Shown here piece by piece: positions 6,768 to 63,083 of a DNA stretch of 64,000 bases (position 1 is its first letter; each line of letters starts with the position of its first letter). The position numbers were made by a program, and so were the translations under genes. This stretch comes from Kiritimatiellia bacterium (GTDB lineage: Bacteria > Verrucomicrobiota > Kiritimatiellia > RFP12 > UBA1067), in assembly GCA_017454745.1 (NCBI GenBank), contig JAFTCL010000083.1:1-64000 (forward strand), in the 5' to 3' direction. The notes under the pieces were generated by a model, which worked only from the letters and a program-made list of their open reading frames with translations, made no database searches and was not told the origin of the DNA.

Positions 6768-8576
6768 ATGCAACTGGGAAAAAGAAATGACGGGATAAAA
6801 ATCAAACCGACGATTTCGGTGGTTTTGGCATTTTGTCTGCCGCCGTTGTTGGCGGCATTGTTCGCTCTGTATTGGATGAATCGCCGCCCCCCTAAGCACC
6901 GCAAACCGTCACCGGCGCTTGCCGTTTTGGAAAATCAGCAAATCGCGGATCTGGATTATGGCATGGACGAGTTGATGGCAACCCGGCAGCATTTGCGTGA
7001 TTCCGGGATTGACACCGACGCAATCAATTTACGGATTTGGGCTGAGTGTGCAGCATCACCGGAGATTCTGGTCCGCGTCGATTCCCCGGATCGTAACGAG
7101 CGTTTGAGCTGGTTGTTTTCCGATGATAGCCGCTACGTGCTGGCGGTCAGCGCCGAAACCGACAACCTCAAAAGAAAATTGGTCGCGCTGTACGATTTTA
7201 GTTCGGAACGCTGGTTGTGGAAACAGCGTTTGGAGTGGCCGGAAGATTACGGCGGGTTAATCGTATGGACCAACAACCATTGTTTTGTTGAATACACCCA
7301 GAACGAACGTGATTTTTGCATCGAAATTGATGAACATGGCAAACCGGCCGACATTCGCCAAATCGCGAAAAGAACGGCGGTTCCTGACAACAATGCCGTT
7401 GCCGGGCCGAGTCGGCAATATCCTGGCGATGTGGTGACAGTCCAAGGCGGAATCGTTTACACCACTGATGTCGGCGGGGCGGTAACCGGATATTCGGAGT
7501 CGGCGTTGCCCGGCTTCTTCTATGCCGGCACCGGGGACGCGTTCACGGTGTTTTCCGGCAACGGAATGTTCAAGTACAACCTTGAGCGCGGCCATATTCG
7601 AGTTTACGATTCGCTTACCCAGGATTTGCTTCTGGATCATCGGGCTTGGGACGGCGCAGACAGTACCGAGGTGCTTTCCACGCTTGCCACCTACACCGGT
7701 GACCAGTTCTCAGCGATTTTACGCAGTACGTTTGACGGGGATTCCGTATCCCGCACTTGGGCGGTGAAGTTGAATCCCGTCACCGGTAAAATGCAACGTT
7801 CGACCGAAGCGAGCGTGTCGGAAACGCCGGACCGTAGCATTTCGCGACAAATAACCGCCTATCAGCGCTGGAAATTGGCCTTGCAAGCAGGAAACAAACT
7901 GGAGATTTCTGATGCGGACGGAAGCGCTGTGGCCCGAACCGTGCTGCCGGTTGGGGAAGGGGAGGTGGATGGCATGAAGTTGCTGGAAGATGGGCATCAC
8001 ATTGTTTTCCGCCGCGGCAAGGATTTCTGGATACTTGATTTCGCCACCGCCATCAGGTATGCCGATTGGAAGGCCAATTTGCGTAACGGGCGCCGGATGA
8101 TTCCGGTTGATTTGGTCGCCAAACTGGAATTGCAGGAACGCCAGTTCCGCGCTTCGTTCTCTTATAACATAACCGCTGCGGAGGCGGCCCGGCTCACCAA
8201 CGGGGTGATGCTGTCCGAACTGAAACGAACCTGCAAAGAAAAACGTGCGCCGGCTTATCTTGAGTTGCGCACGCAGATTTTGGTTGCCAACCGTGCTTGG
8301 CAGTTGGCGTCCGCCTTGATGTTGGACGCGGAGACGTTGCAGGATGGCGACAACCGGTCGTCAAAAATTAATCTGCTCCTGCAAGGACGGGTGGCGGCTT
8401 TGGCCGGTCGCCACCGTCTCGCCGCCGCCGCTATGCGCAATCTTTACACCTCGTTACAGCCGCCCCGTAATTATTACTATTCGTACTATTACTACGGGAA
8501 CCGTAGAGAGGAAACCGTTGACCAGATGCTGAAATTCCACATGGAGCAGCTGTTCCGTTGTCATGTCGACCGTTAA
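6768..8576 (+). CDS. Membrane-anchored protein with propeller-like and helical-repeat regions, unknown function
   Basis: I do not recognise the family. One hydrophobic segment near residues 14-34 (ISVVLAFCLPPLLAALFALY) anchors a large extracytoplasmic part. Residues about 90-430 have repeated short beta-strand blocks (for example SRYVLAV, LYDFSSERWLW, FWILDFATA) suggestive of a beta-propeller. Residues about 460-600 are alpha-helical and TPR-like. Near the C-terminus lies a tyrosine tract (NYYYSYYYYG). ATG 6768 follows the DUF2851 stop by one base; a TTG at 6741 is rejected. It overlaps the next gene by 14 bases, so a partnership with the binding-protein/permease fusion is plausible but unproven. 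Confidence 0.7.
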   Translation: MQLGKRNDGIKIKPTISVVLAFCLPPLLAALFALYWMNRRPPKHRKPSPALAVLENQQIADLDYGMDELMATRQHLRDSGIDTDAINLRIWAECAASPEILVRVDSPDRNERLSWLFSDDSRYVLAVSAETDNLKRKLVALYDFSSERWLWKQRLEWPEDYGGLIVWTNNHCFVEYTQNERDFCIEIDEHGKPADIRQIAKRTAVPDNNAVAGPSRQYPGDVVTVQGGIVYTTDVGGAVTGYSESALPGFFYAGTGDAFTVFSGNGMFKYNLERGHIRVYDSLTQDLLLDHRAWDGADSTEVLSTLATYTGDQFSAILRSTFDGDSVSRTWAVKLNPVTGKMQRSTEASVSETPDRSISRQITAYQRWKLALQAGNKLEISDADGSAVARTVLPVGEGEVDGMKLLEDGHHIVFRRGKDFWILDFATAIRYADWKANLRNGRRMIPVDLVAKLELQERQFRASFSYNITAAEAARLTNGVMLSELKRTCKEKRAPAYLELRTQILVANRAWQLASALMLDAETLQDGDNRSSKINLLLQGRVAALAGRHRLAAAAMRNLYTSLQPPRNYYYSYYYYGNRREETVDQMLKFHMEQLFRCHVDR

Positions 8577-11205
8577 CCGCCATATTTTACATTTCCGTCT
8601 GATGCTGGCTCTACAAGCGCTGTTGGCGGCGGTCTCCGCGTTTTCCGATCCGGTACCGGTGACATTCCTTCAGGGATACGATCCCGACCGACCTGAGAAT
8701 CCGGTAACCACTCAGATAACTAAATTCGCTCGGCAGGAACCCGATCTGATGCCGCAGAAGTGGGGCGGGTTGTCCTTGCCCGGTGCCGGCGGTCGCGCTC
8801 CGTTTATGCTGTCGCTGGCTGGCGGCACCGCGCCAGACATTTATTTCTGCTGGTTTCATATCATCCGCCACGACATCGACCAAGGCTTTATCTATCCGCT
8901 CAACGAATGGATCGGCGAAGATTTGGACGGCGACGGACAGATAAGCGATACGGAAGCCCGTTGGCCGGGGTGGAAGAACGTTCCGGAACTTTGGCGTCGG
9001 GTCGCAACCCGCGACGGGAAGGTTTACGGGGTTCCGGTTTCGGGCATTTGGTATTACGGAATCGTTTACCGCAAGGATCTGGTTCAGCAGGCGTGGATAG
9101 ATCCGGAGTACACGCCGGAAACCTGGGACGAGTTTTATCGTTGGTGCCAGCGGCTTACCTTCCCGCGCCGTCGTATCGCCGGGGCGAAGGTTCAGCGCGG
9201 CCAACGCGCCTTTGGCGCGGAAAACCGCCCTTGGAGCTGGCTGCCCTGGATGCAGTCAGCCGGCGGCTCCCCAATCGTCAACGTGCGCATCTCGCCTACC
9301 ACCGGGAAGAGTTACGTTTTTGCGATGGAAGAGACCCGGTTCATCGCTCCCGATACTGGTGAAGATTTGTCGCAGGTGCAGGGGGAATGGCGGGCAAACT
9401 TCGATTCCGAAGAGGCTTTGGCCGCTGCCGCGTTTTATCGCAAATTAATTTGGGAACCTTGGATCCGTGACCCGGACAGTGGCGAACCGATAGACCTGAC
9501 GCCAGAAGCGATCGCCGCGCACAAGGTGGTTTCCGCGTCGGGGAAGACCGTGGAGTTTACCGATGCCGACATCTTCAAGGGAGTGGTGCGGCCGTTGCCG
9601 CGGCTGACTCAGGAGTTGCCGCAGCTGTTTGCCCAAGGCGAGGTTGTGGCGCTCTTTGCCGGCGCGGAAATGATGGAGCAGCTGACCCAAGATCTCAATC
9701 TGCCGCCAGACATGGTCGGCATTATGCCGTTCCCCGCCGCCAAGCCGGGCATGAAGCCGGTTTTCCAGGCGCATAAACATTTTTACAGCATGACCGAAGG
9801 CGTGGGGAAGCGTCCCAAGTCCGAGCGTGACCTAATTTGGAAATGCGTGGAACAGCTTACCAGCCCAGAGGTGAACGACGAAACCGTCCGGCAGAAAGTT
9901 TTGGAAGGCCATGCCCGGTGGTGTACGCCGTCCGATCTCCACCGGTTGGGGTTCGATGAATATCTGGAAGAAGTACCGGCCGGTATACGCAAGAATTACG
10001 ACCGGTTGGCAAAGGGTGAAATCTTGGCAAGGACTGAACCTTACGCAGGATTTTGGCAGGCGGTTTCGGATTTGGTTGACCGCAGGTTCTTGGGTATTAT
10101 GCTTTCCGACAACGGTGAGGATTTCGATTACGCCGCCGCGCTGAAGGGTATAAATGACGAGGCGAACCGGGGGCTGATGTTTGATATGCCGCGTGAAGTG
10201 TTGGACCGCCGCCGCCCGTTGGCGCGGGTGATTCTCGGAGTGGCGTTGATTTGCTTGCTGGTGTGCGGTTGGATGTGGAACCGGAAAACGAGCGCAACAC
10301 CCTTTGAAGCGTCGTCGGGGCCTTCTAAAAGATTTCGTTTTTCGCCTTGGATGATGCTTGCTCCGGCCGTGCTGTCAATCGCGATTTGGAGTTATTACCC
10401 GTTGTTGCGCGGTGCGGTGATGGCGTTTCAAAATTACCGAATAGTAGGGGAGTCGTCGTGGAGCGGGTTGGACAATTTCATCATGGTCGCCACCGATTCC
10501 GGTTTTTGGAAAGCTTGGGGGAGGACATTGGAATATGTGGCGTTGACCTTGCTTTTGGGGTTCTTGACGCCGATTTTCTTGGCGCTGATGCTGTCGGAGA
10601 TTCCGCGAGGGAAGATTTTCTACCGCACGTTGTATTTTCTGCCGCACCTCACCAGCGCCTTGGTTATTGCGTTGCTCTGGAAACTTATGTACGACCCCAC
10701 CGAAAACGGTATGCTCAACCAGTTGCTGGCCGGGCTTGGAATTGCCAAGCAGAGTTGGCTGCAAGATCCGGCGTGGGCGATGGTGTGTTGCATTTTGCCG
10801 GGAGTGTGGGCAGGAGCGGGAATGTCAAGTCTGATTTATGTGGCGGCATTGCATTCGTTACCGCCGGACTATTACGAGGCGGCGGCGATTGACGGCGCGG
10901 GGATATTTGCCAGGTTCAGGCACATTACCCTGCCGCAACTGTTGCCGCTGATGGTGATTAATTTTGTCGGTGCTTTCATTGCTGCGTTTCAAGGAATGGG
11001 GAGCATATTCCTTCTCACTTTTGGCGGTCCGGGCGATTCAACCAACGTGTTGAGTTTGGCAATCTGGAAAGAAGCGTACAATAATCTCCGTTTCAGTACC
11101 GCCACCACCATGGCGTGGTTTCTGGGGGTTGGATTGATCGCTTTCACCTGTCTCCAGATCCGTTTCCTGCGAAAAGTCGAATTCCGTCAGGCGCAGAGCA
11201 ATTGA
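8563..11205 (+). CDS. Sugar-binding protein fused to MalF-type ABC permease
   Basis: This single 880-residue chain combines two parts of a carbohydrate ABC importer. Residues 1-28 form a signal peptide. About 30-545 is a family-1 extracellular solute-binding domain (GGTAPDIYFCWFH, DGKVYGVPVSG, YTPETWDEFY). A membrane span near 553-572 and a short cytoplasmic linker follow. About 596-875 is a CUT1/MalF-like permease with several spans and the EAA loop EAAAIDGAGIFARFRHITLP (Glu772), which docks to the ATPase. The topology is consistent: binding domain outside, linker inside. No second permease (MalG type) or ATPase gene is nearby, so partners must be encoded elsewhere. The transported sugar is unknown. 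Confidence 0.88.
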   Translation: MSTVNRHILHFRLMLALQALLAAVSAFSDPVPVTFLQGYDPDRPENPVTTQITKFARQEPDLMPQKWGGLSLPGAGGRAPFMLSLAGGTAPDIYFCWFHIIRHDIDQGFIYPLNEWIGEDLDGDGQISDTEARWPGWKNVPELWRRVATRDGKVYGVPVSGIWYYGIVYRKDLVQQAWIDPEYTPETWDEFYRWCQRLTFPRRRIAGAKVQRGQRAFGAENRPWSWLPWMQSAGGSPIVNVRISPTTGKSYVFAMEETRFIAPDTGEDLSQVQGEWRANFDSEEALAAAAFYRKLIWEPWIRDPDSGEPIDLTPEAIAAHKVVSASGKTVEFTDADIFKGVVRPLPRLTQELPQLFAQGEVVALFAGAEMMEQLTQDLNLPPDMVGIMPFPAAKPGMKPVFQAHKHFYSMTEGVGKRPKSERDLIWKCVEQLTSPEVNDETVRQKVLEGHARWCTPSDLHRLGFDEYLEEVPAGIRKNYDRLAKGEILARTEPYAGFWQAVSDLVDRRFLGIMLSDNGEDFDYAAALKGINDEANRGLMFDMPREVLDRRRPLARVILGVALICLLVCGWMWNRKTSATPFEASSGPSKRFRFSPWMMLAPAVLSIAIWSYYPLLRGAVMAFQNYRIVGESSWSGLDNFIMVATDSGFWKAWGRTLEYVALTLLLGFLTPIFLALMLSEIPRGKIFYRTLYFLPHLTSALVIALLWKLMYDPTENGMLNQLLAGLGIAKQSWLQDPAWAMVCCILPGVWAGAGMSSLIYVAALHSLPPDYYEAAAIDGAGIFARFRHITLPQLLPLMVINFVGAFIAAFQGMGSIFLLTFGGPGDSTNVLSLAIWKEAYNNLRFSTATTMAWFLGVGLIAFTCLQIRFLRKVEFRQAQSN

Positions 11206-13202: not shown

Positions 13203-14174
13203 TTAAGAGAAAGTAACCTCTTGCCCGTGGAACATAAAATTGCCGCCAATCACATACTGCATAGCGGATGGGGAGAAGCGGTCCTGTATCGTGATGTGCA
13301 GGTGTCCGGTCAGGATGCCTTTTAACAGCGGCTCTTTCTTCAGGTAGGCGATGAAATCGCGGGTTACGGGATCTGTTTGCTGCACTTTGTAATCACCCGT
13401 GGCGTCTGGAATCTCGACCGAAGTGAATTTCTTTCCGGCTTGCTTCCAGAACTTGCAATCAGCCCGCCAAATGTTTTGGCTCATAAACGGCACGTGCATG
13501 CACAGCACAATCGGCAAACCTTTTTTTACTTCGGCGGCAAAACGTTCAACCTGGTCGGGGCAGACGTAACCGTAAACGTCATCAATCGTCACGAAATTCA
13601 CGCCGTTGACCACGGTCGACTGCAGACGGATATCGAACGGGTATGCCGACTTCAGCTTGTCTGCGGTCTGAGCTTTGTATTCCTCGGTGTTGGATTGCTT
13701 GGAAAGCCACATGTTTTGGGAAAACTCGTGGTTGCCCATCGAACCGGTCATTCCTTCGCCGAAATATTTCTTCACCAAGTCGAAATTGGCCTCGCTCTGC
13801 CAGTCAATCAAATCGCCGGTATGAATGACATAGTCAACGTTCTTTTTCGCCCAGTCAAGCGAATCCCGCAATGCCTCTTCCTGACGACCGCCAAAAGTTT
13901 TGGTGCGGACATCTTTCAGTTTTTGTTTATTTTCGTCCTCGTTGGGGTAGGCGGCGGTGAGGTGAGTGTCGGAGATGTGCAGCACGGAAAACGGTTTGGT
14001 GGCTCCGGCGTTGATGTGTTGGTAGGCTAGCGCCAGCCGTTCATAACGGCCGCGTTGCGGGAAAACCTCTGGATTGTCCGCTAACGACGGCAGTGCGGAT
14101 GTCGCGACCACGCTGCCGGCTGCGAAAGTTTGGGCAAGGAATGTGCGCCGGTTGATAGAGTTCGGTCTAATCAT
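13203..14174 (-). CDS. Tat-exported calcineurin-like metallophosphoesterase
   Basis: This is a dinuclear-metal phosphoesterase of about 323 residues. The motif series is complete: HISDTHLT (D-x-H), HTGDLIDW, GNHEF, MHVPF and GHLH. The N-terminus has a twin-arginine signal (NRRTFLAQ) with a hydrophobic stretch ending around ALPSLA. ATG 14174 is chosen because it is preceded by a near-perfect SD (aaggagg, minus strand) and gives a normal Tat signal; an upstream in-frame start at 14261 would add 29 unlikely residues. It shares a terminator with the convergent GH2 gene. Its promoter lies back to back with that of the LamG-phosphoesterase pair. Substrate unknown. Confidence 0.88.
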   Translation of the reverse strand: MIRPNSINRRTFLAQTFAAGSVVATSALPSLADNPEVFPQRGRYERLALAYQHINAGATKPFSVLHISDTHLTAAYPNEDENKQKLKDVRTKTFGGRQEEALRDSLDWAKKNVDYVIHTGDLIDWQSEANFDLVKKYFGEGMTGSMGNHEFSQNMWLSKQSNTEEYKAQTADKLKSAYPFDIRLQSTVVNGVNFVTIDDVYGYVCPDQVERFAAEVKKGLPIVLCMHVPFMSQNIWRADCKFWKQAGKKFTSVEIPDATGDYKVQQTDPVTRDFIAYLKKEPLLKGILTGHLHITIQDRFSPSAMQYVIGGNFMFHGQEVTFS

Positions 14175-14209
14175 GGATAACCTCCTTATTTTTGGCTGAT
14201 AACGAGATA

Positions 14210-14239
14210 ATAATACCACAAAGACACCACGTACCGCAA
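14210..14239 (-). promoter_or_regulatory. Predicted minus-strand promoter of the Tat phosphoesterase
   Basis: Read on the minus strand: TTGCGG (14239-14234), an 18-base spacer ending TGG, and TATTAT (14215-14210). This is an extended -10, about 36 bases upstream of the start codon. Confidence 0.6.
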
Positions 14240-14290
14240 CCGTAAAACCTGATTGACGCATTTGGGGGATCGGCGTTGATCGTTTTAACC

Positions 14291-14320
14291 TTTACGCGTC
14301 ATACGAGATTTTGGTATGAT
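14291..14320 (+). promoter_or_regulatory. Predicted promoter of the LamG-phosphoesterase pair
   Basis: TTTACG (14291-14296), an 18-base spacer and TATGAT (14315-14320), with TTTTGG before the -10. It leaves an untranslated leader of roughly 107 bases before the first gene. The same TTTTGGTATGAT string occurs at 34619-34630. Confidence 0.55.
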
Positions 14321-14433
14321 TATATCTGTTAATGGGTGTTGTGTGCTGATTGTCGGTGCGGCATTTCGCTGTTGGACTGGAATGAGTGCAGTGGTATGCA
14401 CTTTTAATTTGGGAAGTTCAAACGGGATTGCAA

Positions 14434-16293
14434 ATGAAGCGATTTCTGTCGTTTATTATTGCGGTATCATGTGTCGCCTTTGGCGCATACGCCGGTTTGG
14501 TGGCGAAGTGGGACTTCAATAACTATGACCAGTCTCATCAGGCATCAACGAACATTCTGGCTGCGACTGTCGGCAGAGCCGGTAGGCCGTGCTATAAAGT
14601 CGGTTCCGGCACCGCCCTCGTGACGGACGGCACGCTCGGTCAAATGTACGTGGTTGCTCCCAACTACACCGGCGCGGATGCATCCGCCACAAACGCCGCA
14701 ACCGGTCTCGGCACTGGCAACTACGCGATCGCGATTCCAAAGTCATCACATATCGCCCTGCCGATTCCCGATGCGGTAAAGAACCACAACTGGGCGATGA
14801 AAATCCGATGCTGGATTGCGGGTAACAATGTTTTGCACACGTTCTTTAACCGCACTAACACCGGGGACGGTGACCTTTTTACCTGTGTATCAAGGGGCGA
14901 TCGTGTGGCGAACGGCGTGGGCGGCGGTGCATTCAGTTCGTACGGCTCGTACCAAAATGCCATGTCACCCGGTGCTTGGCATACACTCACAATTTCCGTT
15001 TGGGATCGGGACTGGAACGTACTTTTAGACGATACTACGGAATGTTGTTATGGCACAAACACCACAAATTCCAACAACAATTGTTTCTTCGCGTCCGCTT
15101 TCGAGCCGCTGACCGTCATCGACGGCGTTGGACATTTGCTCCTCGGAGCCGATAACGATGGCGAGGACAACCTCATTTACATTGACTATGTGGAACTGTA
15201 TGATGAGGTGCCGGCCGTGGCTACTGACACCGAGGCGAAGATGCCCCGTTTCGAGTTCGGCGAGAACGGGACATTCACATTCCTGATGATTTCCGATTGG
15301 CACCGAAAGCGGGGACGGTCTGACACGGCGCGAGAAATCGCCCTGCTCCGTACGGCAATTTCGCGGTTCAGTCCGTCGCTTGTAGTGTTCGGCGGCGACA
15401 ACATCTCACCCGGTGAGAACGGACGCGGCGTTTTTGAGAATCTCATGGCCCCGGTCATGGCAGAGTTCAAGGCGTCTGCCACGCCGCTGTGTGTCGCGTT
15501 CGGAAACCACGATTCGGAGCCGCCGGAGTCCGATCGATCGTTTGTCTCGCGTCAGGAGCAGTACGACTGGTATAAGTCATCGCTCGGCGACCTCTTCGTC
15601 GATCATGACGTGCCGGAGCTGACTGGCGTGGGAACTGGTGTTGTGCCGGTATTCTTGCGCGGTGCGTCGAAGCCGGCCTTCAAGATTTACGTTGCCGATT
15701 CTGGTGACCATCCCAAGCGTGATGCCAACGGCAGGCTCGTCAAGGGAAGCGGCTGGGACAACCCGCATTCCGACCAAATCGCGTGGTACCTTCGGGAATC
15801 GGCGGACGGGGCTCCGCATATCTGGATCCAGCACATCATAGTGCCGGACGCCAACTGCCACGGGCTGTTTGTCCCGGCCGGGGAGGGCGAAGGGAGAAAG
15901 GACTTCCTGATGCCGGACGGCTCTAAGCGGCGCATGAAGCTTGCGGTCGGTGCCGCTGGCATCTGCGCGGAGACGACTTGCCCGCCGTATTGGAACACAT
16001 ACCGCGACGCTGCGCACACTGCGGATTCCTTGACGCTTTACGACGCTTGGCGGAAGTCCCGATGTATGAAGGGCGCGTTCTTTGGCCACGACCACACCAA
16101 CACCTTTGACGGTATGGATGTGAACGGCATCCGCCTTGGTATGACCAAGAGTTTCAACTGCGGTGGCTCGTACGGCGACGGCGAACCGGGCTTCAGGGTA
16201 TTCCGGATCCGGCAGGACGGCTCGTTCGACACGTGGATCGAGACCGAGAAGACGCTTCGCGATAACCGTCGGCAGGGAGTTCGGCGGATGTAA
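14434..16293 (+). CDS. Secreted LamG-like domain fused to metallophosphoesterase
   Basis: This protein has about 619 residues. A signal peptide (MKRFLSFIIAVSC...AYAG) is followed by a LamG-like concanavalin-fold region (about 22-265) starting LVAKWDFNNYD. A calcineurin-like phosphoesterase follows (about 280-600) with SDWH, FGGDN, GNHD, QHI and GHDH. Its first 265 residues closely resemble the N-terminus of the next gene, so the two are tandem paralogues. ATG 14434 gives a clean signal peptide but has only a weak SD; an in-frame start at 14386 lacks a signal and is rejected. There is no visible cell-surface anchor. Probably secreted; the substrate is unknown. Confidence 0.85.
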   Translation: MKRFLSFIIAVSCVAFGAYAGLVAKWDFNNYDQSHQASTNILAATVGRAGRPCYKVGSGTALVTDGTLGQMYVVAPNYTGADASATNAATGLGTGNYAIAIPKSSHIALPIPDAVKNHNWAMKIRCWIAGNNVLHTFFNRTNTGDGDLFTCVSRGDRVANGVGGGAFSSYGSYQNAMSPGAWHTLTISVWDRDWNVLLDDTTECCYGTNTTNSNNNCFFASAFEPLTVIDGVGHLLLGADNDGEDNLIYIDYVELYDEVPAVATDTEAKMPRFEFGENGTFTFLMISDWHRKRGRSDTAREIALLRTAISRFSPSLVVFGGDNISPGENGRGVFENLMAPVMAEFKASATPLCVAFGNHDSEPPESDRSFVSRQEQYDWYKSSLGDLFVDHDVPELTGVGTGVVPVFLRGASKPAFKIYVADSGDHPKRDANGRLVKGSGWDNPHSDQIAWYLRESADGAPHIWIQHIIVPDANCHGLFVPAGEGEGRKDFLMPDGSKRRMKLAVGAAGICAETTCPPYWNTYRDAAHTADSLTLYDAWRKSRCMKGAFFGHDHTNTFDGMDVNGIRLGMTKSFNCGGSYGDGEPGFRVFRIRQDGSFDTWIETEKTLRDNRRQGVRRM

Positions 16294-16353
16294 GTTCTCT
16301 TCTCACTGCCATTGATAATTTTAACATGACCATATTTCGAAAGGAACACGATA

Positions 16354-19300
16354 ATGCATAAGTCGGCAAGCATGAACGGCATCGGCAGGGGATTGTCCTG
16401 TAATGCGCTTACTACGCTTACGGGCGCAGCGGCTATTATAATCTGCGCAACTTTAACGACTTTCGCTGGGCTTGTCGCCAAGTGGGACTTCAACAACTAC
16501 GACCCGTCGAATCCAAGTTCGCCCGATGTGCTACAGGCGACATTGGGCGGTAGCGGTCTGCCGTGTTACTATGTGGGTAAAGGTTCTGCGCTGGTGACTG
16601 ACGGTACGCTTGGGCAGATGTACGTGGTTTCGCCGGATTATTCCGGTTCGGATACAACTGTGGCTACTGCCGCTGCAGGTCTTGGCGACGGCAATTATGC
16701 AATCGCGATTCCGAAGTCATCTCATGTTGCCCTGCCGATTCCCGACGCCGTGAAAAACCACAGTTGGACGCTAAAGCTCCGCTGCTGGTATCCGGGCGAT
16801 GGGCAATGGCATGCCTTCTTCAACCGGAACAACACCACCGACGCAGACCTCTTCCTTACCGTATCAAAGAGCGGACGCGTGAAGAATGGCATCGGCGGAG
16901 GCCCTTTCACCGCGAACAACAACTACAAGTACGCCGTGTCTCCGTCCACGTGGCACACAATCATCGTCTCCGCCGGCGAACAGCGCTGGGACGTGTTCGT
17001 AGATGAAACACACGAAGGCACATACGGCAACAGCGGCGGGAACAAGAACTTCTTCACGGCGGAGGCGCTCACGCAGTACAACGGCACCGACCATCTGCTC
17101 CTCTGCGCCGACGAAGATGGCGAGGATAATCTCATGTACATTGACTATGTGGAGCTGTATGACGAGGCGTCCGTTTACGAGGGCAAGCTGCCGCACTACA
17201 CGAAGGCGGGCCTGACCGGCGAATGGACCTTCCCCGCCGGAAACCCTCTCAAGGCCGCTATCGGCCGCGACATCGAAAGGCACACGCGTTCTGGCCAAGT
17301 CGTCATCTTCGCCGACGGTACGGACGGCGTCCTTCCGGGCGACGGCTACACCCGCGCCGGACAGAACAACGGCCTCAAATGCTATCACGGTCTCACCAAC
17401 AACTGCAACTACACTGTCGTGATGGACGTGCGCGTGCCGGTGAACGACAACACATCGCAAAAATGGCACGGACTTTTCAAGGCTCAGGACGTCAATTCGG
17501 ATGCGGACGTGTTCATCACTACAGACGGCAGTGCCAGTACGCTTAGGATACGTACGCGCGGAGAGCGCTACTCAAATACTGACGTCGCCTTCGGCGAATG
17601 GATGCGCGTGGCAATCACACACCTGAACGGCACCAACAAGAAGATTTACATCAACGGTGTACTGAAGGACACCGCCACCAAGTCTCCCACCATGATGGAC
17701 ACGACGAAGGGCGGTTACTTCCTCCTTCTCAGTGATGATAACGGCGAGGACTACGACACCGATATCTCTTACGCCGCAGTCTATGACAGAATCTTGACGG
17801 ACTCCGAAATCGCGGAGCTCCATTCGCGTCCGCTCGCGCAGAAGTCCGATGAATCGTTCTTGCCTACCGTAGCCCCAGCTGGTGTTTGGACGGCAGACGG
17901 CGAGGGCGGATTTGCGGTTTCGAAAGGCATGCCGCTTGCGGCGGACGGTAACGGCTGGAAATGGACACGTTCGTCGGCTCCCGCCGCCGCCACCTATGTG
18001 GTCGACATCACGCTCCCTGCCGAGCAGACCGAAGGATGCGTGCTGGCGATGAACGCGAGCGGCGTCGCCTCCGGCATATATGGCACCACGAGTACCTACT
18101 CAGGCAGTTTCCATACGACGACGGACGCTTCGACATTCCTCAACAGCACGTACTTAAGCACATGGGGATATTGGAGCGAGAACGCGCTCGACCGCATTAG
18201 CGCGCACCGCGTCGCCGTCGTGTGGTCCACTAGCGGACGCGTCCACTACTACGTTGATGGCCGCGCATGGGGGCAGCTTTTCCCCGCGAACGCTAATGCC
18301 TCGCTGAAGCCCTCCGCCACGATGACGTTCCTCGACGGACTCGCCTCGGGCGCGACGCGCGTTGCCGCGTACGACGCGGCGCTCACGCCGAACGAGGTGG
18401 CTTCGCTCGGTGGCGTGGGTACGGTGCCCTCTGGCACGGCGCCAGCCGCGCCCACGATTGACGCGACGATTACGGAGATGCCAGTCAAGGCACTTGTCGA
18501 TGCGGTCACGTTCACCGTCACCGGGACGCACCCGGACGGTGAATATTTCACGTTCGCGATTGACTTTGGCGACGGCACGGGAGACTGCACGACGGCACTG
18601 GTGCCGTCCGGCTCGTCTGCTACGTTCAGCCACGTCTTCGGCGCGAGCGGCACTTTCACGCCGCGCGTCAAGACGATCTCGCAGAACGGAGTTGAGAGTG
18701 CGTGGACGATGGGCGACCCGATCGAGGTGGAGCTCGTCGACATCGCGGCGCGCGATGTGCTCGTCACCTGGCCGTGGCAGCAGAATGTCTATACGAACCG
18801 TTTCACGATCATGTGCGAGGGCGTGAAGGACGCGGATGACGTCACGCGCTGGGACGGTCTTGAGGTACAGTATGGCGAAGGCTACACGCAGCGCGCGCCG
18901 ATGACGCGAGTTGATAGTAATGGCGACACATGGATATACACTGGTCACATCACAATCGACGGCATGGACGGTCAGATTGTCCCGTACCGCCTTGGCTATT
19001 ACGGCATGCCGCTTACGTTTGACGATCCGGCAGACGATACAGCCGGCACGGTGAAGCTTTGGTCGCAGAATGATGACGAGTCCTTCACCTGCTCCGTATG
19101 GGGAGACAACCAGCAGGGAGGGCGGGACAAAGAATGGGACAGCGACAAATTCGCTTATGTGAAAGCCCTTTTCAAGCACATGGTCGCGCGAGATGTGGAT
19201 TTCGGCATTGCGACCGGTGACATGTCCTCTGGGGCAAAATACGCCGACGAGATACGCCCCTGCATCCTTGACAGCACCGATGTAATATTCGGTAGTTCGC

Positions 19301-22300
19301 GTCCCTACTACGTCGCGTGGGGCAATCACGACACGAGCAATCCCGCGAACAAGACCTACTTTGAGACAGGTGCCGTTGACGAACCCGCCTACGGTTCTAG
19401 CGCGTCCGGAAACTATTATCTCTACCGCGGCAACGTGCTATTCATTTTCATCGACCACAATCTTATGGGGGCCGCCGCCACAAAGACTTGGCTCGCGGAT
19501 TTGCTTGCCACCGACCGCGCGCGTGCGGCGAAGTTCCGCATCATCGCCCAGCATTTTCCGTTCTGGCTCGAATGTTGGGGTGGTAACAACAGTCAGGCGC
19601 TCCTCGACACCGCAAAGGCTGGGGGGATTGATCTCATTTTCTCTGGCCACATGCACGGTTACGAGCGCATTCATAAGGACGGCATCATACAACTCACGAA
19701 CGGAGGTGCCGGTTACCTCGACCATGTGGAGAGCGTGAACGCCAACTATGGTGATGCCACCTTCCTTGGCGGCCATAATGACGTCCCTTACCTTTGGGCG
19801 CGCCAGAAGAGCGTAACGGAAACGGATGTGCTCGGCCCCGCCGAACCCGTGCGCATGGGCTGTATCCACAGCTATGGCGAGTTGAAGGTTGACGGAAATA
19901 CTCTCACCTACACTGCGCATGGCTTCAATGCTGACGGCAGTTACATAGGAGTGTTCGACGAGTTCACCATCACGTCGAAGACGGTTCAGGCATCTGCACC
20001 GGCTCCGACCGATTCCTTGGTGTTCTGCGCCGATTCTTCTTCGTTCGCGCAGTTTACTTCAAAACCCGTCACGAACGCAAAATGGAAGGAATACAAGGAT
20101 GCAGTAGGCGAGGAGTTCACCTTTGCGGAAGGTGCCGGAGACAATCCGGTGGTGAATGTCTCGAAGAACGAAATCGTTAAATTCCTCGCATGGCTAAACG
20201 GTGAAACCGGAGACTACCGGCTCCCGACAGTGGGCGAGCTTGAGACTGCTTTCGGCGGCGAATTGCGCAGGGAAGTTTCTGAATGGACCTCCTCCATTGA
20301 TCCCTACACCGGTTGGTGCCGTATTCTTGGCTCGCCGGCGGTTTCAGCCGAGGGCACGTGGTGTCGTGCGGCGGACAAGCCGTCCATCGCGACGGCGGGA
20401 TGCCACGCGAACTACCTCGGCTTCCGCCTTGCGACGGGCGTGGCCCCTGCGGAGCCTGCTGCGGCTGACGCGCCACTCGTGCCCGCACTTGCTACGTTAG
20501 AAGGAATCGCGAACCCTGCTGTTGTCTATAAGTGGGTGGGCGGCGCGTTAATTGATATCACCGCGGAGTGGACAAATCCTAGGGCAGACCTCGTTTACGA
20601 TGTTCCCGTAATTTTTGCGGGCGAAGGTGTGGTATCGAACAACCCAACGGCGTTCAATGTCACGTTTAATGCCGGTCTTGCCGCGTCGCGTTCGACACTA
20701 CTCATGAAGAGCGGTTCCGGCACTCTTACCGTGAAAGGGGCGGTTAAAGGCGGCGTGTGCAACTCTGCGGGCGGTTGGGTAATCGCCTCAGAAGGTCCGC
20801 TGGTCTTTGATAATGTCGCGTTCGCTGGGCAGGGGGCGCAGTTCCGTTCTGGCGACGGCATGTTGTTGCTAAAGGGTAATAATGACTTTTCTGGCGCGTG
20901 CGTGTATCTTGACGGCACGAACAACAACTGCACCAACTATGTCGCGGCGGCGGAAGAGCCGACGGTGTTCCGCGCGCGGCGTATCACAAACAAAGGCGCA
21001 AACTTCACTGGTATTGGCGATAATGTCTCCGTGACGCTGTCAAAGGACTACCAGTTCGGTGGATCTTACAGAATTTTGCTTAACGGCTCGATTAATGCGG
21101 AGGCGTTCAACTCGCTAGGAAACTATGACCCGATTGTGTTCGGGCCGGGATCTGCTAGTATCGGGTATTTCGGTTGCGCGGTGAACGCTTGGATGCGCTT
21201 CGGCATGGCTAATTTGGAGTTTACGACGGCGCGGCCGTTCAGATCCAATATTCCTTCAACGAAGAATTACTACGGCATCTTCTTCGCGAGAGACGAGATT
21301 CACATTTCTTCGACTTGTGACTGGAGCGTTCCCGTGAAGGATCATTTCGGGATGCCGATATATTTTGTGGCCGACACGCGTGACACGACGATCTGTACCC
21401 GTCCGAAGCTCATATTCGAGGGGGAACACGATGTTTTCTATTCGCCTACGGCTTCCTCGGCCACGTTGAGCAGTACCGCCTTTACCAGCCCTTGGGATAT
21501 TGAGATGGCCGGTACGGGAACCTTGACGATCAAGACCGCGACGAAAGGCGATATCGCTGTGACTGACGGCACGGTCAAGATTTCCGCCTTGCCATGTTCG
21601 GGTACCACCTCCGCCTCCGGAGACGGCAAGTGGGCAATCGACGAGACGCTTGCGCTTTTGGCGGGGCAGATGATCAACGGCGCGTTTGCGCCCGGCGGTG
21701 CGCTGACATACGACTTCGCCGACAACGGCTTTGGCGAATATATGGTCCTCAAGGGCTGCGGCCTTTCGGAGGGTGATATCACGGTTACAACGAGCCTTGA
21801 CGCGGCGGACAGCCTGAGTGTGAGGTGCGACTGGACAGGCGGGGACCTACGGCTTGTCGTGGAGCCTGCTGTGGGCAGACGCATAGCAGAGTGGACGGGC
21901 GGCGGCGCAGACGGAAAGCCGCTCGACCCCGCCAACTGGCGCGTGACGGAAGACGGCGTGGAGGTGCCTGGCGCCGTTCCAAACTCCACAACGCTCATCC
22001 GCCTTGCCGGATCGACCACGCTCAGCTTCCCGCAGACTGACGGGTTTGCGTATGCGGGGTTGATACTTTCCGATGACGTGTCGTTGGGGGCGGACTGCGA
22101 TTGGAGCGGACTCGGTGCGGTCGCCTTGCATGACGGCGCGTTCATCGACTTGCTCGGCCACCGCCTCGACGTTTCCGGTTTTACCGGTATAACGGCGGGT
22201 ATGGCCGGTGTTACCGATTCGACGACCGACACCGAACATCCCGGAGAACTCCATCTTTGCGTTGCCGAAGGTTCCACGCTAATGAACGACAAAGCCGCCT

Positions 22301-23286
22301 TCACGGGGAACATGAAGCTCGTCAAGGAAGGCTTAGGCACATACGTTTCGGCTTACGCCCCGCAAACCTACACGGGCGGAACGCTTGTCGCCGAAGGTGT
22401 CGCGCAACCGCCCGACGGCAACGGCGCGAACACCACGTACAGCGGCGACGCATTCAGGACGTTTGGTCCCACATATGTTGCCGTTGCGTCCAACGCGGTA
22501 TTCGACTTGAGAGCCAACTATGCCTACTACGGGCGGAGAATGGATGACCAGCGTTTCGTGAGGCTTGAAGGCGGCACGATCAGAAACAGCATGGCGGACA
22601 TGACGAAGAGTACATGGGGGGGATCTGGCATCGGCGCACTTACTGCGGACTCCACGCTCGATGTGTCGTATTCAATCGTGTTCCAAAGCGCGTTGTGCGA
22701 CCTCGGCGGATACACGCTCACGATTCCCATCGTTTACGCGAAGCACCTGTACGTCCACGACACGATGTTCACCAACGGTACTATCAACATCACCTCCGGC
22801 GGTTACCTGCACATTACCACCGCGGTTGACGCATCGACGGTCGATTTCAAGGTGGGTTGCGCGTTGTATTTGGAAGGCAGTCTTGATGTGCGCGATTACG
22901 AGCCGGTATGGAGTAATGCGACGTACAACAAAGGCGCTGCCGCGCTGAACGTGCATCGCGCGTTCATACCTGCCGCGCATGACTGCTTCTACGGTTGCAC
23001 GATGATGGAGGGATCCACCATCGATTTGTCCAATCGTACGACGCCGCTACCGCTTACGTCCGTATTCACTGACACTGGTCGCAAGACGTTGTCATTCGAA
23101 GACGGAGCATCCGTCCAGATCAGAATCAAGAATGGGACATTCCTGGAAGAGAATGTGAAGATTATTTCCTGGGATTCGCCTCCTGAAGGAGTCAGTTTTA
23201 TCCCTGAAAGAGTTGATTGCAAGCTGCTGATGGAGGACGATGGCCTATATTTGCAACGGGTTGGCACAATGGTTATTCTGCTCTGA
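16354..23286 (+). CDS. Giant secreted multidomain phosphoesterase with autotransporter-type repeats
   Basis: This is a 2310-residue secreted protein. Approximate order: signal peptide 1-38; LamG-like domains 38-275, 285-500 and 510-690; PKD-like domain 700-800 (DFGDGTGD); purple-acid-phosphatase-like phosphoesterase 905-1215; SUMF1/formylglycine-enzyme-like segment 1240-1370 (YRLPTVGELE, VSEWTSS, LGFRLA); beta-helix with autotransporter-associated strand repeats 1400-2300 (MKSGSGTLTV, PQTYTGGTLVAEG). The phosphoesterase motifs are WGDNQ, ATGDMSSG, GNHD (from residue 990), QHFP and GHMH (from residue 1099); the first has Asp-Asn-Gln instead of D-x-H. No C-terminal membrane barrel is seen; the protein ends GTMVILL. 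SD aaagga precedes ATG. It may be co-transcribed with the upstream paralogue. Confidence 0.85.
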   Translation: MHKSASMNGIGRGLSCNALTTLTGAAAIIICATLTTFAGLVAKWDFNNYDPSNPSSPDVLQATLGGSGLPCYYVGKGSALVTDGTLGQMYVVSPDYSGSDTTVATAAAGLGDGNYAIAIPKSSHVALPIPDAVKNHSWTLKLRCWYPGDGQWHAFFNRNNTTDADLFLTVSKSGRVKNGIGGGPFTANNNYKYAVSPSTWHTIIVSAGEQRWDVFVDETHEGTYGNSGGNKNFFTAEALTQYNGTDHLLLCADEDGEDNLMYIDYVELYDEASVYEGKLPHYTKAGLTGEWTFPAGNPLKAAIGRDIERHTRSGQVVIFADGTDGVLPGDGYTRAGQNNGLKCYHGLTNNCNYTVVMDVRVPVNDNTSQKWHGLFKAQDVNSDADVFITTDGSASTLRIRTRGERYSNTDVAFGEWMRVAITHLNGTNKKIYINGVLKDTATKSPTMMDTTKGGYFLLLSDDNGEDYDTDISYAAVYDRILTDSEIAELHSRPLAQKSDESFLPTVAPAGVWTADGEGGFAVSKGMPLAADGNGWKWTRSSAPAAATYVVDITLPAEQTEGCVLAMNASGVASGIYGTTSTYSGSFHTTTDASTFLNSTYLSTWGYWSENALDRISAHRVAVVWSTSGRVHYYVDGRAWGQLFPANANASLKPSATMTFLDGLASGATRVAAYDAALTPNEVASLGGVGTVPSGTAPAAPTIDATITEMPVKALVDAVTFTVTGTHPDGEYFTFAIDFGDGTGDCTTALVPSGSSATFSHVFGASGTFTPRVKTISQNGVESAWTMGDPIEVELVDIAARDVLVTWPWQQNVYTNRFTIMCEGVKDADDVTRWDGLEVQYGEGYTQRAPMTRVDSNGDTWIYTGHITIDGMDGQIVPYRLGYYGMPLTFDDPADDTAGTVKLWSQNDDESFTCSVWGDNQQGGRDKEWDSDKFAYVKALFKHMVARDVDFGIATGDMSSGAKYADEIRPCILDSTDVIFGSSRPYYVAWGNHDTSNPANKTYFETGAVDEPAYGSSASGNYYLYRGNVLFIFIDHNLMGAAATKTWLADLLATDRARAAKFRIIAQHFPFWLECWGGNNSQALLDTAKAGGIDLIFSGHMHGYERIHKDGIIQLTNGGAGYLDHVESVNANYGDATFLGGHNDVPYLWARQKSVTETDVLGPAEPVRMGCIHSYGELKVDGNTLTYTAHGFNADGSYIGVFDEFTITSKTVQASAPAPTDSLVFCADSSSFAQFTSKPVTNAKWKEYKDAVGEEFTFAEGAGDNPVVNVSKNEIVKFLAWLNGETGDYRLPTVGELETAFGGELRREVSEWTSSIDPYTGWCRILGSPAVSAEGTWCRAADKPSIATAGCHANYLGFRLATGVAPAEPAAADAPLVPALATLEGIANPAVVYKWVGGALIDITAEWTNPRADLVYDVPVIFAGEGVVSNNPTAFNVTFNAGLAASRSTLLMKSGSGTLTVKGAVKGGVCNSAGGWVIASEGPLVFDNVAFAGQGAQFRSGDGMLLLKGNNDFSGACVYLDGTNNNCTNYVAAAEEPTVFRARRITNKGANFTGIGDNVSVTLSKDYQFGGSYRILLNGSINAEAFNSLGNYDPIVFGPGSASIGYFGCAVNAWMRFGMANLEFTTARPFRSNIPSTKNYYGIFFARDEIHISSTCDWSVPVKDHFGMPIYFVADTRDTTICTRPKLIFEGEHDVFYSPTASSATLSSTAFTSPWDIEMAGTGTLTIKTATKGDIAVTDGTVKISALPCSGTTSASGDGKWAIDETLALLAGQMINGAFAPGGALTYDFADNGFGEYMVLKGCGLSEGDITVTTSLDAADSLSVRCDWTGGDLRLVVEPAVGRRIAEWTGGGADGKPLDPANWRVTEDGVEVPGAVPNSTTLIRLAGSTTLSFPQTDGFAYAGLILSDDVSLGADCDWSGLGAVALHDGAFIDLLGHRLDVSGFTGITAGMAGVTDSTTDTEHPGELHLCVAEGSTLMNDKAAFTGNMKLVKEGLGTYVSAYAPQTYTGGTLVAEGVAQPPDGNGANTTYSGDAFRTFGPTYVAVASNAVFDLRANYAYYGRRMDDQRFVRLEGGTIRNSMADMTKSTWGGSGIGALTADSTLDVSYSIVFQSALCDLGGYTLTIPIVYAKHLYVHDTMFTNGTINITSGGYLHITTAVDASTVDFKVGCALYLEGSLDVRDYEPVWSNATYNKGAAALNVHRAFIPAAHDCFYGCTMMEGSTIDLSNRTTPLPLTSVFTDTGRKTLSFEDGASVQIRIKNGTFLEENVKIISWDSPPEGVSFIPERVDCKLLMEDDGLYLQRVGTMVILL

Positions 23287-23327: not shown

Positions 23328-23367
23328 AACTGGTGCGCGGGCTAACTCGCCCGCGCACCAGTTGTTT
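23328..23367 (+). terminator. Intrinsic terminator after the giant phosphoesterase
   Basis: A 15-base perfect stem (23328-23342 with 23349-23363) and a 6-base loop are followed by GTTTT. It cleanly separates the giant gene from the lipoprotein operon. Confidence 0.88.
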
Positions 23368-32751: not shown

Positions 32752-33879
32752 CTAAGCCAGCGTAAACGTTCGTCCGATTTCACCGGCGTCGCCGGGATAA
32801 AAATCCACCGTAACCGACTGGTCGGAAACGTTCATGCGGAAATGCCCCGCGCCGGGATTAAAGAAACACTCATGGAGGTAAGGGGTAAAGAACGCGATAT
32901 CCTGTTCAAAACGCTTCAACCGTTCGGCGTTGGCCGGTTCCGCTCCCGCGCCATTGCGGTAAACCGAGCCGAAATCCTTGGCTTTGTCATAAACCGGTTC
33001 GGCGGTGGCCAGTTCGGGCTTGCACCAAACGGAATTGGCGGTGAATTCAGCAAACGATCCCACGCCATCTTTTTTGAAAACCCGCCATTCGACCCTATGG
33101 GTATGACCGGAAAGCACAATCGCGTGGCGTTTCAACAACAATTCAAACAGGGTGGACCGGTCATTGGCGCACTTTTTGTTGTCGCCGCCGAGCCGCCACT
33201 GCCAACTGCCATTGTCACCGGGCGTGAACGGTCCGTGCGTAACCAAGAAGGTGTGGCGGACATTCGGGTTCGACTCGATTTCGCTGATGATTGGTTTGAG
33301 GTTACGGGTTTCGAAATCGCAAAACACATACAGGTCGCCGCCGATGATTTGGGAAAACGCGGGGTATTTAACCTGTTTCCCGAGTTCTTTAGACATGAAC
33401 GGCTCGCAAAATTCGTAGTAGGCCCGATGTCCGCCAATGCCCCGGTAGTCGTGGTTGCCCGCAACGGTCAGAAACGGCAGCGAGCCGGGGTAGGGGGAAC
33501 GGAGCATCTTGATGCAGTCGTCGAGCATCTTTTGGTGGGTGGCGTAGTCATCGCAGTCGCCTTGGATAATGTCGCCCATTTGCAGAATGAAGCGCGTCCG
33601 CGATTGTGCCGCCCGTGCGCTGGCGGCCAGCAGGTTGCGGCAACGCTCGCGCCACATCTCGCCGTTGCGGGCGAATTCCTGGCGCTGGACCTTCCATAGC
33701 CATTCGGCTTTGCCCTCGTTTTTGTAGTGCGAGTGGTAAACCGAAGCCGGTTCGGTGTCAAAATGAGTGTCGCCCAGAATCGCCACGGAGTAACGTTCTC
33801 CGCCTTTGGACAGGTATGCGCAGCCGCCAAACGCGGGAAACGTTGCGGCGGACAGTTTTAGGAAATCGCGTCTTTTCAT
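32752..33879 (-). CDS. Tat-exported metallophosphoesterase (possible lipoprotein)
   Basis: A 375-residue calcineurin-like phosphoesterase. Motifs: LGDTHFD, MGDIIQGD, GNHDYRG, THGPF and GHTHRVE. The N-terminus MKRRDFLKLSAATFPAFGGC is a twin-arginine signal followed by a cysteine, so lipidation after Tat export is possible, although the lipobox is imperfect. The last 90 residues form a beta-rich tail. It lies 31 bases downstream of pgpA on the same strand, so the two are probably co-transcribed. This is one of four separate phosphoesterase domains of this superfamily in the window. Substrate unknown. Confidence 0.87.
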   Translation of the reverse strand: MKRRDFLKLSAATFPAFGGCAYLSKGGERYSVAILGDTHFDTEPASVYHSHYKNEGKAEWLWKVQRQEFARNGEMWRERCRNLLAASARAAQSRTRFILQMGDIIQGDCDDYATHQKMLDDCIKMLRSPYPGSLPFLTVAGNHDYRGIGGHRAYYEFCEPFMSKELGKQVKYPAFSQIIGGDLYVFCDFETRNLKPIISEIESNPNVRHTFLVTHGPFTPGDNGSWQWRLGGDNKKCANDRSTLFELLLKRHAIVLSGHTHRVEWRVFKKDGVGSFAEFTANSVWCKPELATAEPVYDKAKDFGSVYRNGAGAEPANAERLKRFEQDIAFFTPYLHECFFNPGAGHFRMNVSDQSVTVDFYPGDAGEIGRTFTLA

Positions 33880-34630: not shown

Positions 34631-34671
34631 ATTATTGTTTTTTGGGTGTTTTTTCGATTTTGGAGCTTGCG

Positions 34672-35721
34672 GTGGCGATCAGTCGGTTGTTTTTGGTTCT
34701 TGCTTTAACGGTGGCGGCCTGGGAAGTACAGTCCGGCACCGAGCCGTTGGTTATCGCCAGTTGGAATGTTGAGAATCTGTTTGACTATGAGGATGATCCC
34801 GACAATCCCGGCGATGACGGCTATACGCCCCGCGGTTGGATGCGCTGGAGCGAGCGCCGCTACCGTACCAAGCTGGACCATCTGGCCGGGGTCATCCGGG
34901 AGATGAAACCCCAGGTTTTGTGTTTGGCTGAAGTGGAAAACCGCCGGGTATTGGAAGACTTGACGCAAGTGCTGAAAGAAAAGTACGATTATCCGATGAC
35001 CGCCATCATCCATCGCGAAGGCACGGATTTGCGCGGGATCGACGTTGCCATGTTGTCGGTGCGGAAACCGGAGAAGACAGAGTGGAAGACTCCGGTGTCC
35101 GGGCAGCGTGACGTGCTGGCCGCTTCCTTTGATTTCGACGGTCGCAAGATTACGGTGTTGGCCAACCATTGGAAATCGCAGTTGGGCAACAAACAGGAGA
35201 GCGGGGAATTGCGCCGCAAATGCGCCCAGGCGGCGCGGGGGTTGGTGGACAAGGCGTTGAAGGCCGATCCGTCGGCGGCGGTGGTGGTGACCGGAGATTT
35301 TAACGATGTGCCGGAGTCCGAGGTGCTGACCGGTACCGCCGGATTTGTGCTGGACGAGCAACTGTTTATGACCAACAGTACCGGGAGGTTGCTGTTCAAC
35401 CTTAGCGCGACCGTGCCTGAATCCGAGCGGTTGACCTACTATTACGCCAGCGGTGACAAATGGAGCACGCTGGATATGTTCCACATTTCGCGCGGGATGT
35501 GGAACGGTGATGCGCCGTGGAAGGTGAAACGTGGATCGATGCGGGTGTTTAAAACCCCGCGCCAGTGTAACCGTAAAGGGGAACCGCTGCCGTTCAAGCG
35601 CCAACGCAACAAAACAGTGGGCGATGTCTATTTAACCGGTTATTCCGACCATTTCCCGATTCTGATGGAACTTGAACCCGGAGCAAAGCCGAAGAGGGCG
35701 GATAAAGATGCTGGATTATGA
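34672..35721 (+). CDS. Secreted endonuclease/exonuclease/phosphatase family protein
   Basis: About 349 residues with a signal peptide (about 1-17, LFLVLALTVAAW). The EEP fold motifs are in order: ASWNVENLFD, CLAEVEN, DVAML, NHWKSQ, GDFNDVP and SDHFPI, including the metal-binding Glu and catalytic Asp/His. Family members cleave DNA, inositol phosphates or sphingomyelin; a secreted form with this N-terminus is common in Bacteroidetes and the PVC group, and its substrate is unknown. GTG 34672 is chosen because ggagc lies six bases upstream; TTG codons at 34642 and 34660 are alternatives. It overlaps the helicase gene by 14 bases. Confidence 0.85.
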   Translation: MAISRLFLVLALTVAAWEVQSGTEPLVIASWNVENLFDYEDDPDNPGDDGYTPRGWMRWSERRYRTKLDHLAGVIREMKPQVLCLAEVENRRVLEDLTQVLKEKYDYPMTAIIHREGTDLRGIDVAMLSVRKPEKTEWKTPVSGQRDVLAASFDFDGRKITVLANHWKSQLGNKQESGELRRKCAQAARGLVDKALKADPSAAVVVTGDFNDVPESEVLTGTAGFVLDEQLFMTNSTGRLLFNLSATVPESERLTYYYASGDKWSTLDMFHISRGMWNGDAPWKVKRGSMRVFKTPRQCNRKGEPLPFKRQRNKTVGDVYLTGYSDHFPILMELEPGAKPKRADKDAGL

Positions 35722-46075: not shown

Positions 46076-46105
46076 GTTATGAAATTCAACCGAGGGAGAC
46101 TGTTG

Positions 46106-59541: not shown

Positions 59542-60438
59542 TTACCTATATCCGATTTTTTTCAGTCTGGAGACGCAATCTGCCTTGGCGGCTTCGGAAA
59601 GCGCGACGTTCGGGCGACGGACGTCGCCTAAGTCCAGATCCCAAACTTTCATCATCGCCTTACCTCCGGCGACACCGCCGTACTGCACCAGAATGTCCAC
59701 AATGTCGCAAACCTTCTTCATGCCGGTCTGCGCCTTTTTAAGGTCACCCTTTTTGACCGCGTCCCAAATTTTGTAGTAAACCCCGGCGGCATAATTGTAG
59801 GTCGAGCCGATGGCAGATTGCGCCCCGCACGCCACCGCGCCGGCGAACCATTCATCGATGCCCCAGGTGATATCGTACTTCCCGCCGCAGGCGCGAAGGC
59901 AACGCTGATACATATAGAGGTCGGCGTAGTTGAATTTGATTCCGGCGAGATTGCCGATCTTGCCGTCCGCCTTTTCAAGGAACGCCTGCATATCGAAGTT
60001 AACCCCGGACATTCCGGTGTGGTAGTAGTAAAACGGCAGTTTTGTGCTGGTCTGCAACGCTTCGTTCAGGTAGTCAATCAGAGCATCGATAGAACCCGGC
60101 TTGAAGAAATTCGGCGGAACGATGGAGGTGGCGTCCATGCCGCATTCTACCGCGTGGGCGCCGAGTTCCTGCACGTCCGGGATTGCTAACGCGCCGATGT
60201 GCGCTATCAGGTACAGTTTGCCTTTGGCGGCTGCCGTCCAGGCGTCGAACAGGGCCTTGCGTTCGGCTACGGAACAGCAGATGCCCTCTCCGGTGGTGCC
60301 GGAAATGTAAACGCCGGTAACATTCTGCCGCACCAGCAGGTCGGCTTGCTTGGATACCAGCGCGAGATTGACGCTGCCGTCGGCGTTGAACGGCGTGTGG
60401 GCAGCCGCGATTAATCCCTTAAGTTTCTTGATGGCCAT
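59542..60438 (-). CDS. nanA: N-acetylneuraminate lyase
   Basis: It splits N-acetylneuraminate into N-acetylmannosamine and pyruvate in the cytoplasm. 298 residues of the DHDPS/NAL TIM-barrel family. Residues 47-52 are GTTGEG (carboxylate binding), Tyr139 lies in FYYYHTGMSG, and Schiff-base Lys168 in AGIKFNYAD. The Tyr-Tyr-His-Thr context distinguishes NanA from dihydrodipicolinate synthase. ATG overlaps the symporter stop (TAATG), so they are translationally coupled. The operon context with a mutarotase/symporter and an AGE epimerase confirms the sialic acid assignment. Confidence 0.93.
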   Translation of the reverse strand: MAIKKLKGLIAAAHTPFNADGSVNLALVSKQADLLVRQNVTGVYISGTTGEGICCSVAERKALFDAWTAAAKGKLYLIAHIGALAIPDVQELGAHAVECGMDATSIVPPNFFKPGSIDALIDYLNEALQTSTKLPFYYYHTGMSGVNFDMQAFLEKADGKIGNLAGIKFNYADLYMYQRCLRACGGKYDITWGIDEWFAGAVACGAQSAIGSTYNYAAGVYYKIWDAVKKGDLKKAQTGMKKVCDIVDILVQYGGVAGGKAMMKVWDLDLGDVRRPNVALSEAAKADCVSRLKKIGYR

Positions 60439-63035: not shown

Positions 63036-63083
63036 TCCGTTCCCTCGGAGAAACCAAAAACAAACCAACATTTACTATTTACA

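Follow-up and report, generated by a model that had tools for sequence, protein, structure and literature searches.

How does a giant β-solenoid protein that lacks a translocator barrel leave the cell, and what would it do outside? The question is raised by a 2310-aa protein (P0001) encoded in the window, by which we mean the whole stretch of DNA analysed, 64,000 nucleotides from a Kiritimatiellia bacterium. Kiritimatiellae are found in ruminant guts and have been little studied, and our literature search returned no account of how they place giant β-solenoid proteins outside the cell. P0001 ends in a short C-terminal tail that recurs on many other proteins and that, judged from sequence, is a probable undescribed sorting tag.

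Layout and relatives of the 2310-residue protein

P0001 is encoded by a single intact open reading frame (ORF) with an ATG start, no internal stops and an AAAGGA stretch just 5' of the ATG. Its parts, and the evidence for each, are the following.

16354-23286, + strand: P0001, purple acid phosphatase (PAP)-like phosphoesterase/β-solenoid protein, 2310 aa (ORF, Pfam, single-ORF relatives L021, L022, L025 and L029)
16354-16467, + strand: putative N-terminal export-signal region, basic and then hydrophobic, ending TTFA-G (read from sequence)
16471-17208, + strand: LamG-like domain 1, residues ~40-285 (58% identity to the start of the neighbour P0002; weak Laminin_G_3 match, E 0.0078)
17377-17814, + strand: Laminin_G_3 domain, residues 342-487 (Pfam, over the cut-off, E 3.7e-13)
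18445-18708, + strand: PKD-like domain, residues 698-785 (PKD_4 at E 5.5e-5, under the Pfam cut-off; PDB 4xed_A, E 1.9e-4)
18724-19065, + strand: PAP-type N-terminal beta domain, residues ~791-904 (plant PAPs are aligned by VIA from model residue 20-36 onwards)
19066-19998, + strand: Metallophos catalytic domain, residues ~905-1215, with D918, D956, N991, H1067, H1099 and H1101 (Pfam, relatives alignment, structure comparison)
20068-20322, + strand: SUMF1/FGE-like segment, residues 1239-1323 (Pfam profile positions 62-142 of 255)
20449-23061, + strand: β-solenoid stalk, residues ~1366-2236, with a PATR-like stretch, read by eye, near 1995-2030 (fold model of residues 1830-2310)
23077-23283, + strand: conserved C-terminal module, residues 2242-2310, closing with the tail GTMVILL (genome-wide profile matches)
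23328-23363, + strand: strong terminator-like hairpin 3' of the P0001 stop (region at -38.3 kcal/mol, z -9.6)

The hairpin was absent from the output of the consensus scan, and the NCBIfam scan of P0001 gave no match. A first-pass annotation had read LamG, PKD, phosphoesterase, SUMF1-like and β-helix parts in this one protein, which was borne out by Pfam and by folding. It had also called the domain combination unlike any described family. This stands in so far as no paper on P0001 as a whole, or on its tail, was found among the titles and abstract openings that we judged, but it does not stand for the parts, and uncultured genomes encode relatives laid out in the same way. Each part is of a known kind and the combination is new.

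A scan of genome contigs returned 13 related loci (L021-L033) from metagenome-assembled genomes (MAGs) labelled as uncultured bacterium, Verrucomicrobia, Lentisphaerae or Kiritimatiellae; where the titles give a source, it is ruminant rumen, omasum or rectum. Four of these loci contained one uninterrupted, nearly full-length ORF, with best-segment identities to P0001 of 76% (L021), 66% (L022), 66% (L025) and 45% (L029). These full-length relatives ruled out a gene-prediction artefact or a chance ORF. Among the others, L028 was split into three reading frames, six were partial (L023, L024, L026, L027, L030 and L032), L031 was a paralogue without the enzyme and L033 matched the C-terminal part only. 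The 354-aa phosphoesterase part was present in 6 of the 59 genomes searched (own genome counted), all of one family. In L023 and L026 (UBA1200), a relative of P0001 is split across two contigs that overlap yet disagree in residues 1049-1351; the start of L026 matches L021 and not the window; in L023, one residue next to a repeated stretch is undetermined. The disagreement may reflect either an assembly chimera or strain recombination.

The SUMF1-like segment matched FGE-sulfatase (PF03781) over the Pfam cut-off, with an E of 5.3e-6. Formylglycine-generating enzymes carry their active-site cysteine pair, C-x4-C, near the C-terminus. The P0001 segment, which reads GTWCRAADKP...AGCHANYLGFRLA, differs from them in covering about a third of the profile and in lacking such a pair near its end, and it may be a structural or binding remnant. 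SUMF1-like folds also serve as targets of diversity-generating retroelements; we have rejected this role here, the two RVT_1 matches of the genome lying on other contigs and the segment being 83% identical to that of L021.

The phosphatase-like head and its genomic surroundings

The catalytic domain matched Pfam Metallophos (PF00149) over residues 930-1103, with an E of 2.8e-10 and 41.4 bits against a curated cut-off of 21.5. The single sequence reached 6git, titled wheat purple acid phytase (E 9.7e-4), and a profile of 11 relatives reached kidney-bean PAP (E 1.9e-5). The structure prediction that the first-pass annotation had proposed for the phosphoesterase was run on residues 780-1225 and gave a PAP-like fold, but at a mean pLDDT of 51.3, a low confidence that leaves the geometry of the metal site unproven. 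With this low-confidence model, the top Foldseek row was sweet-potato PAP (1xzw_B, E 1e-11) and the top VIA-align rows were PAPs as well (7ov8_A, Z 19.8, rmsd 3.3, 233 aligned residues). The plant PAPs in VIA-align (Z ~19) were aligned over model residues ~20-434, so that the beta domain preceding the catalytic domain shares the resemblance; Pfam gave no PAP N-domain match in P0001.

The motifs of P0001 are G917-D918-N919-Q920, G955-D956-M-S-S959, G990-N991-H992-D993, H1067 and H1099-M-H1101. We have followed them in an alignment of 11 rows. One row ends before motif IV, another lacks everything up to and including motif III, and one shares 99% identity with the window. GDNQ, GDM[AS]S and GNHD were each found in 10 of the 10 rows covering them, as were the motif-IV His and GHMHGYER. 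Like plant PAPs, including the wheat purple acid phytase (4dhl, 1xzw, 6git), P0001 combines an N-terminal beta domain with Metallophos and has GNHD (the GNH(D/E) of PAPs), the His of VxxH (with a leading residue often other than Val) and GHxH followed by YER. Unlike them, it has GDNQ where PAPs have GDxG at motif I, the Asp being retained, Ser in all ten rows (GDMSS/GDMAS) where GDxxY has its tyrosine, and an invariant Tyr four residues on; moreover, its enzyme is embedded in a 2310-aa solenoid protein. As given in PMC6515233, PAP metal ligands include the tyrosine of GDxxY. Because two Asp, the Asn and three His are kept and the PAP tyrosine is replaced by Ser, we describe the head as PAP-like and not as a strict PAP. 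Gln920 or the invariant Tyr963 may stand in for the tyrosine, and the head is predicted to bind a binuclear metal centre and to catalyze phosphoester cleavage. The early comparison of the phosphoesterase with PAPs was thus upheld by Foldseek, VIA-align, the profile search and the six retained ligand positions; the accompanying statement that WGDNQ replaces a D-x-H motif was misplaced, as PAPs carry GDxG there.

Phosphoesterase genes are frequent around P0001, the nearest ones, and one with a similar ending, being the following.

13203-14261, - strand: third adjacent Metallophos gene (Pfam)
14386-16293, + strand: P0002, 635-aa neighbour 60 bp upstream of P0001, likewise LamG-like at the N-terminus, with a distinct Metallophos domain (DWH, GNHD, GHDH) and without the tail
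48857-57148, + strand: 2763-aa giant with GDPD and beta-strand repeats, ending GTLFMLH; its phosphoesterase head is the second in the window to go with such a tail (Pfam, tail reading)

Residues 28-294 of P0001 are 58% identical to the first ~270 residues of P0002, and the two genes are probably on the same transcript. Overall, the window holds seven phosphoesterase genes of four families (four Metallophos, Alk_phosphatase, EEP and GDPD) at 13203-23286, 32752-33879, 34642-35721, 46079-47506 and 48857-57148, which include 4 of the 29 Metallophos matches of the genome and its sole Alk_phosphatase match. Among the window genes scanned, neither a Pst transporter nor a Pho regulator turned up. The window also holds a GH2 gene and a GlcNAc 2-epimerase gene. 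Two fusions were observed in addition: an 880-aa protein with solute-binding and ABC permease domains (8563-11205), which has a relative of similar length in L023, and a sodium:solute symporter domain joined to an N-acetylneuraminate epimerase (NANM) domain (60438-63071).

When 18 window neighbours were compared with the ORFs of at least 150 aa in L021-L033 (several of which have short flanks), all except P0002 had matches only in L023 and L026, which by identity belong to a same-genus MAG, or none. With P0002 as the query, the matches in other loci were mainly due to the LamG part that it has in common with P0001; a 377-aa ORF in L030 matched as well. A conserved operon is thus a weak clue to function here.

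The solenoid stalk and the C-terminal tail

The solenoid region spans ~940 residues. We have modelled its last 481 residues (1830-2310), which formed a β-solenoid with a mean pLDDT of 81.6; values below 50 were confined to the first eleven residues, three loops and the final five residues, so the tail is not confidently packed. The best Foldseek rows were mostly autotransporter passengers, weakly matched (best E 2.9e-3, none reaching E 0.001). P0001 resembles the type V autotransporter passengers with PATR repeats (PF12951/TIGR02601) in its long β-solenoid, and its paralogues have PATR matches; it differs in having a short conserved tail instead of the C-terminal translocator barrel. The first reading of this region, autotransporter-type strand repeats without a C-terminal barrel, was right about the solenoid and the missing barrel but overlooked the conserved tail in the barrel's place.

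The C-terminal part is widely duplicated in the genome, where P0001 had 42 matches, mostly to its C-terminal ~500 residues. One paralogue, L001, has residues 27-782 and the solenoid end in common with P0001 and lacks the Metallophos/SUMF1 middle. A 26-row profile built from the last ~75 residues gave 30 matches in the genome, 22 of them to the profile end and 8 shorter. In the fetched ORFs, terminal copies (n = 19) reached profile positions 76-77 of 77, whereas internal copies (n = 7, leaving out three weak matches at E 0.6, 8.6 and 13) stopped at 66-72 and continued into the next module without the short tail.

The tail itself consists of Gly, Thr, four hydrophobic residues, Arg and the stop, and appears in P0001 as GTMVILL (23263-23283). 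The corresponding DNA pattern (Gly, Thr, four codons with a middle T, Arg, stop) occurred 15 times in the genome and 0 times in both the reversed and the permuted controls; at one match (C23:16788) there was no tailed ORF of at least 100 aa. A looser expression (last residue R, K, H or L) gave 29 matches in the ORF pool against 0.26 expected, an excess biased by the pool having been fetched for the module or the tail and by the looser expression itself, and hence the pattern count is the unbiased test. As the match in L010 is to an antisense ORF and was judged false, 28 plausible tailed proteins, P0001 included, were read in the genome, which are large, mostly signal-bearing and end in Arg, His or Leu. 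The tail also closes proteins outside the module matches, namely the GDPD giant (GTLFMLH, 57125-57145), L042, L043, L044, L047 and L049.

We have then followed the tail through 387 genomes of the phylum. The 18 genomes of the own family gave 145 matches (2 in the control) and the 25 genomes of other families of the order gave 45 (3 in the control). In the 88 genomes of other orders of the class there were 82 matches against 25 in the control, 29 of the 82 coming from a single genome (G158), and in other classes 56 matches were spread over 46 of 256 genomes, by eye about the control rate there. In L052, a protein of G158 and hence of another order, residues 1159-1202 (of 1213) form a choice-of-anchor Q domain, with the tail behind it. 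In other bacteria, the choice-of-anchor domain precedes known anchors. The succession of this domain and the tail in L052 is the strongest sign that the tail would be a sorting signal.

We have compared this ending with known export routes. The autotransporter barrel (PF03797) had no match in P0001 or in its 92%-complete genome, and was found in 3 of 14 control genomes. SprA_N of the type IX system gave none in the own genome, and likewise none in the 14 control genomes; the NCBIfam type IX C-terminal domain had no match in P0001. More generally, no NCBIfam C-terminal sorting model matched any of nine proteins scanned, eight of them tailed. We had expected exosortase to be absent, wrongly: the genome encodes an EpsH exosortase (G000:C31:62641-63405, E 5.8e-49), so another sorting route exists in this organism. 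The tail has neither the PEP motif nor the transmembrane span of PEP-CTERM. It is like the choice-of-anchor, PEP-CTERM and type IX signals in being C-terminal and common to many different proteins, and unlike them in having just four or five hydrophobic residues and, as a rule, a single Arg, with no LPXTG.

Proposed role and alternative readings

Taken as a whole, we lean slightly toward P0001 being an exported phosphoester hydrolase on a solenoid stalk with a C-terminal sorting tag, likely serving phosphate scavenging. Its substrate, surface location and tag function are what we infer from these data. In rumen or gut Kiritimatiellae, the protein would be exported and built as a cassette: the LamG- and PKD-like modules would bind a surface or glycan, the PAP-like two-metal domain would cut phosphate esters and the β-solenoid stalk would hold it at a distance from the cell. 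The last ~8 residues (Gly-Thr-hydrophobics-Arg/Leu-COOH), common to ~27 other proteins, would act as a sorting tag replacing the autotransporter barrel, and the purpose would most likely be to scavenge phosphate from organic phosphate. Surface phosphate release is favoured because phosphoesterase heads recur on like-ended proteins and phosphoesterase genes crowd the window. Beyond the GDPD giant, a Phosphodiest head was found in L010, which leaves its contig before any tail, and in L011, where it also matches Sulfatase, a related fold. No other catalytic family was above the cut-off among the further tail- or module-bearing proteins scanned. Several points count against this reading: most of the proteins scanned had only LamG, PATR, F5/8C, PKD, DUF2341 or PA14 parts, or nothing; the head of L011 is shared with Sulfatase; Metallophos in 4 of the 20 fetched regions is just a slight excess over the ~1.4 that the genome density predicts; and the scanned window genes include no Pst or Pho gene. 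The proposal of a surface-displayed phosphate or phospholipid hydrolase made at first reading is best kept for phosphate esters, given the PAP-like fold, the ligands, the signal-like N-terminus and the other phosphoesterase heads; its phospholipid part found no direct support.

The domains that precede the enzyme could also be read as directing it to glycans. It would then strip phosphate from LamG-bound host, plant or microbial glycans or glycolipids so that these can be degraded, not to supply phosphate, and the GH2, the solute-binding/permease fusion and the GlcNAc 2-epimerase of the window would fit such a role. We consider this unlikely, since with so many unrelated phosphoesterase families close together in the window a general release of phosphate is the better fit. 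Still more improbable, in our judgement, is a role of P0001 as an adhesin or surface-layer element in which the phosphoesterase domain has lost its catalytic activity. The missing PAP tyrosine and the paralogue L001, which does without the Metallophos/SUMF1 middle, point that way, but the Asp, Asn and His ligand positions are all kept down to 54% identity, which is unexpected for a dead enzyme.

As for the tail, it could be no more than the final strand of a C-terminal β-helix cap that has been duplicated many times, with no sorting role: the module is shared by descent in many tail proteins, and the last strand is replaced wherever another module follows. This we hold to be somewhat unlikely, as the tail ends proteins that the module profile does not match, comes after the choice-of-anchor Q domain of L052, from another order, and is not confidently packed in the model. 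A sorting tag is our preferred reading of the tail. Whether it is an undescribed Kiritimatiellae sorting or secretion signal that would feed an outer-membrane export machine for barrel-less β-solenoid proteins, with P0001 as a cargo bearing a PAP-like phosphatase of altered metal site, is in our estimate evenly balanced.

The phosphatase head offers a concrete candidate enzyme whose predicted metal site departs from the textbook PAP pattern. The tail is the part most deserving of follow-up: being present on dozens of proteins, it would provide a sequence-based predictor of the cargo set and could lead to the export machine.
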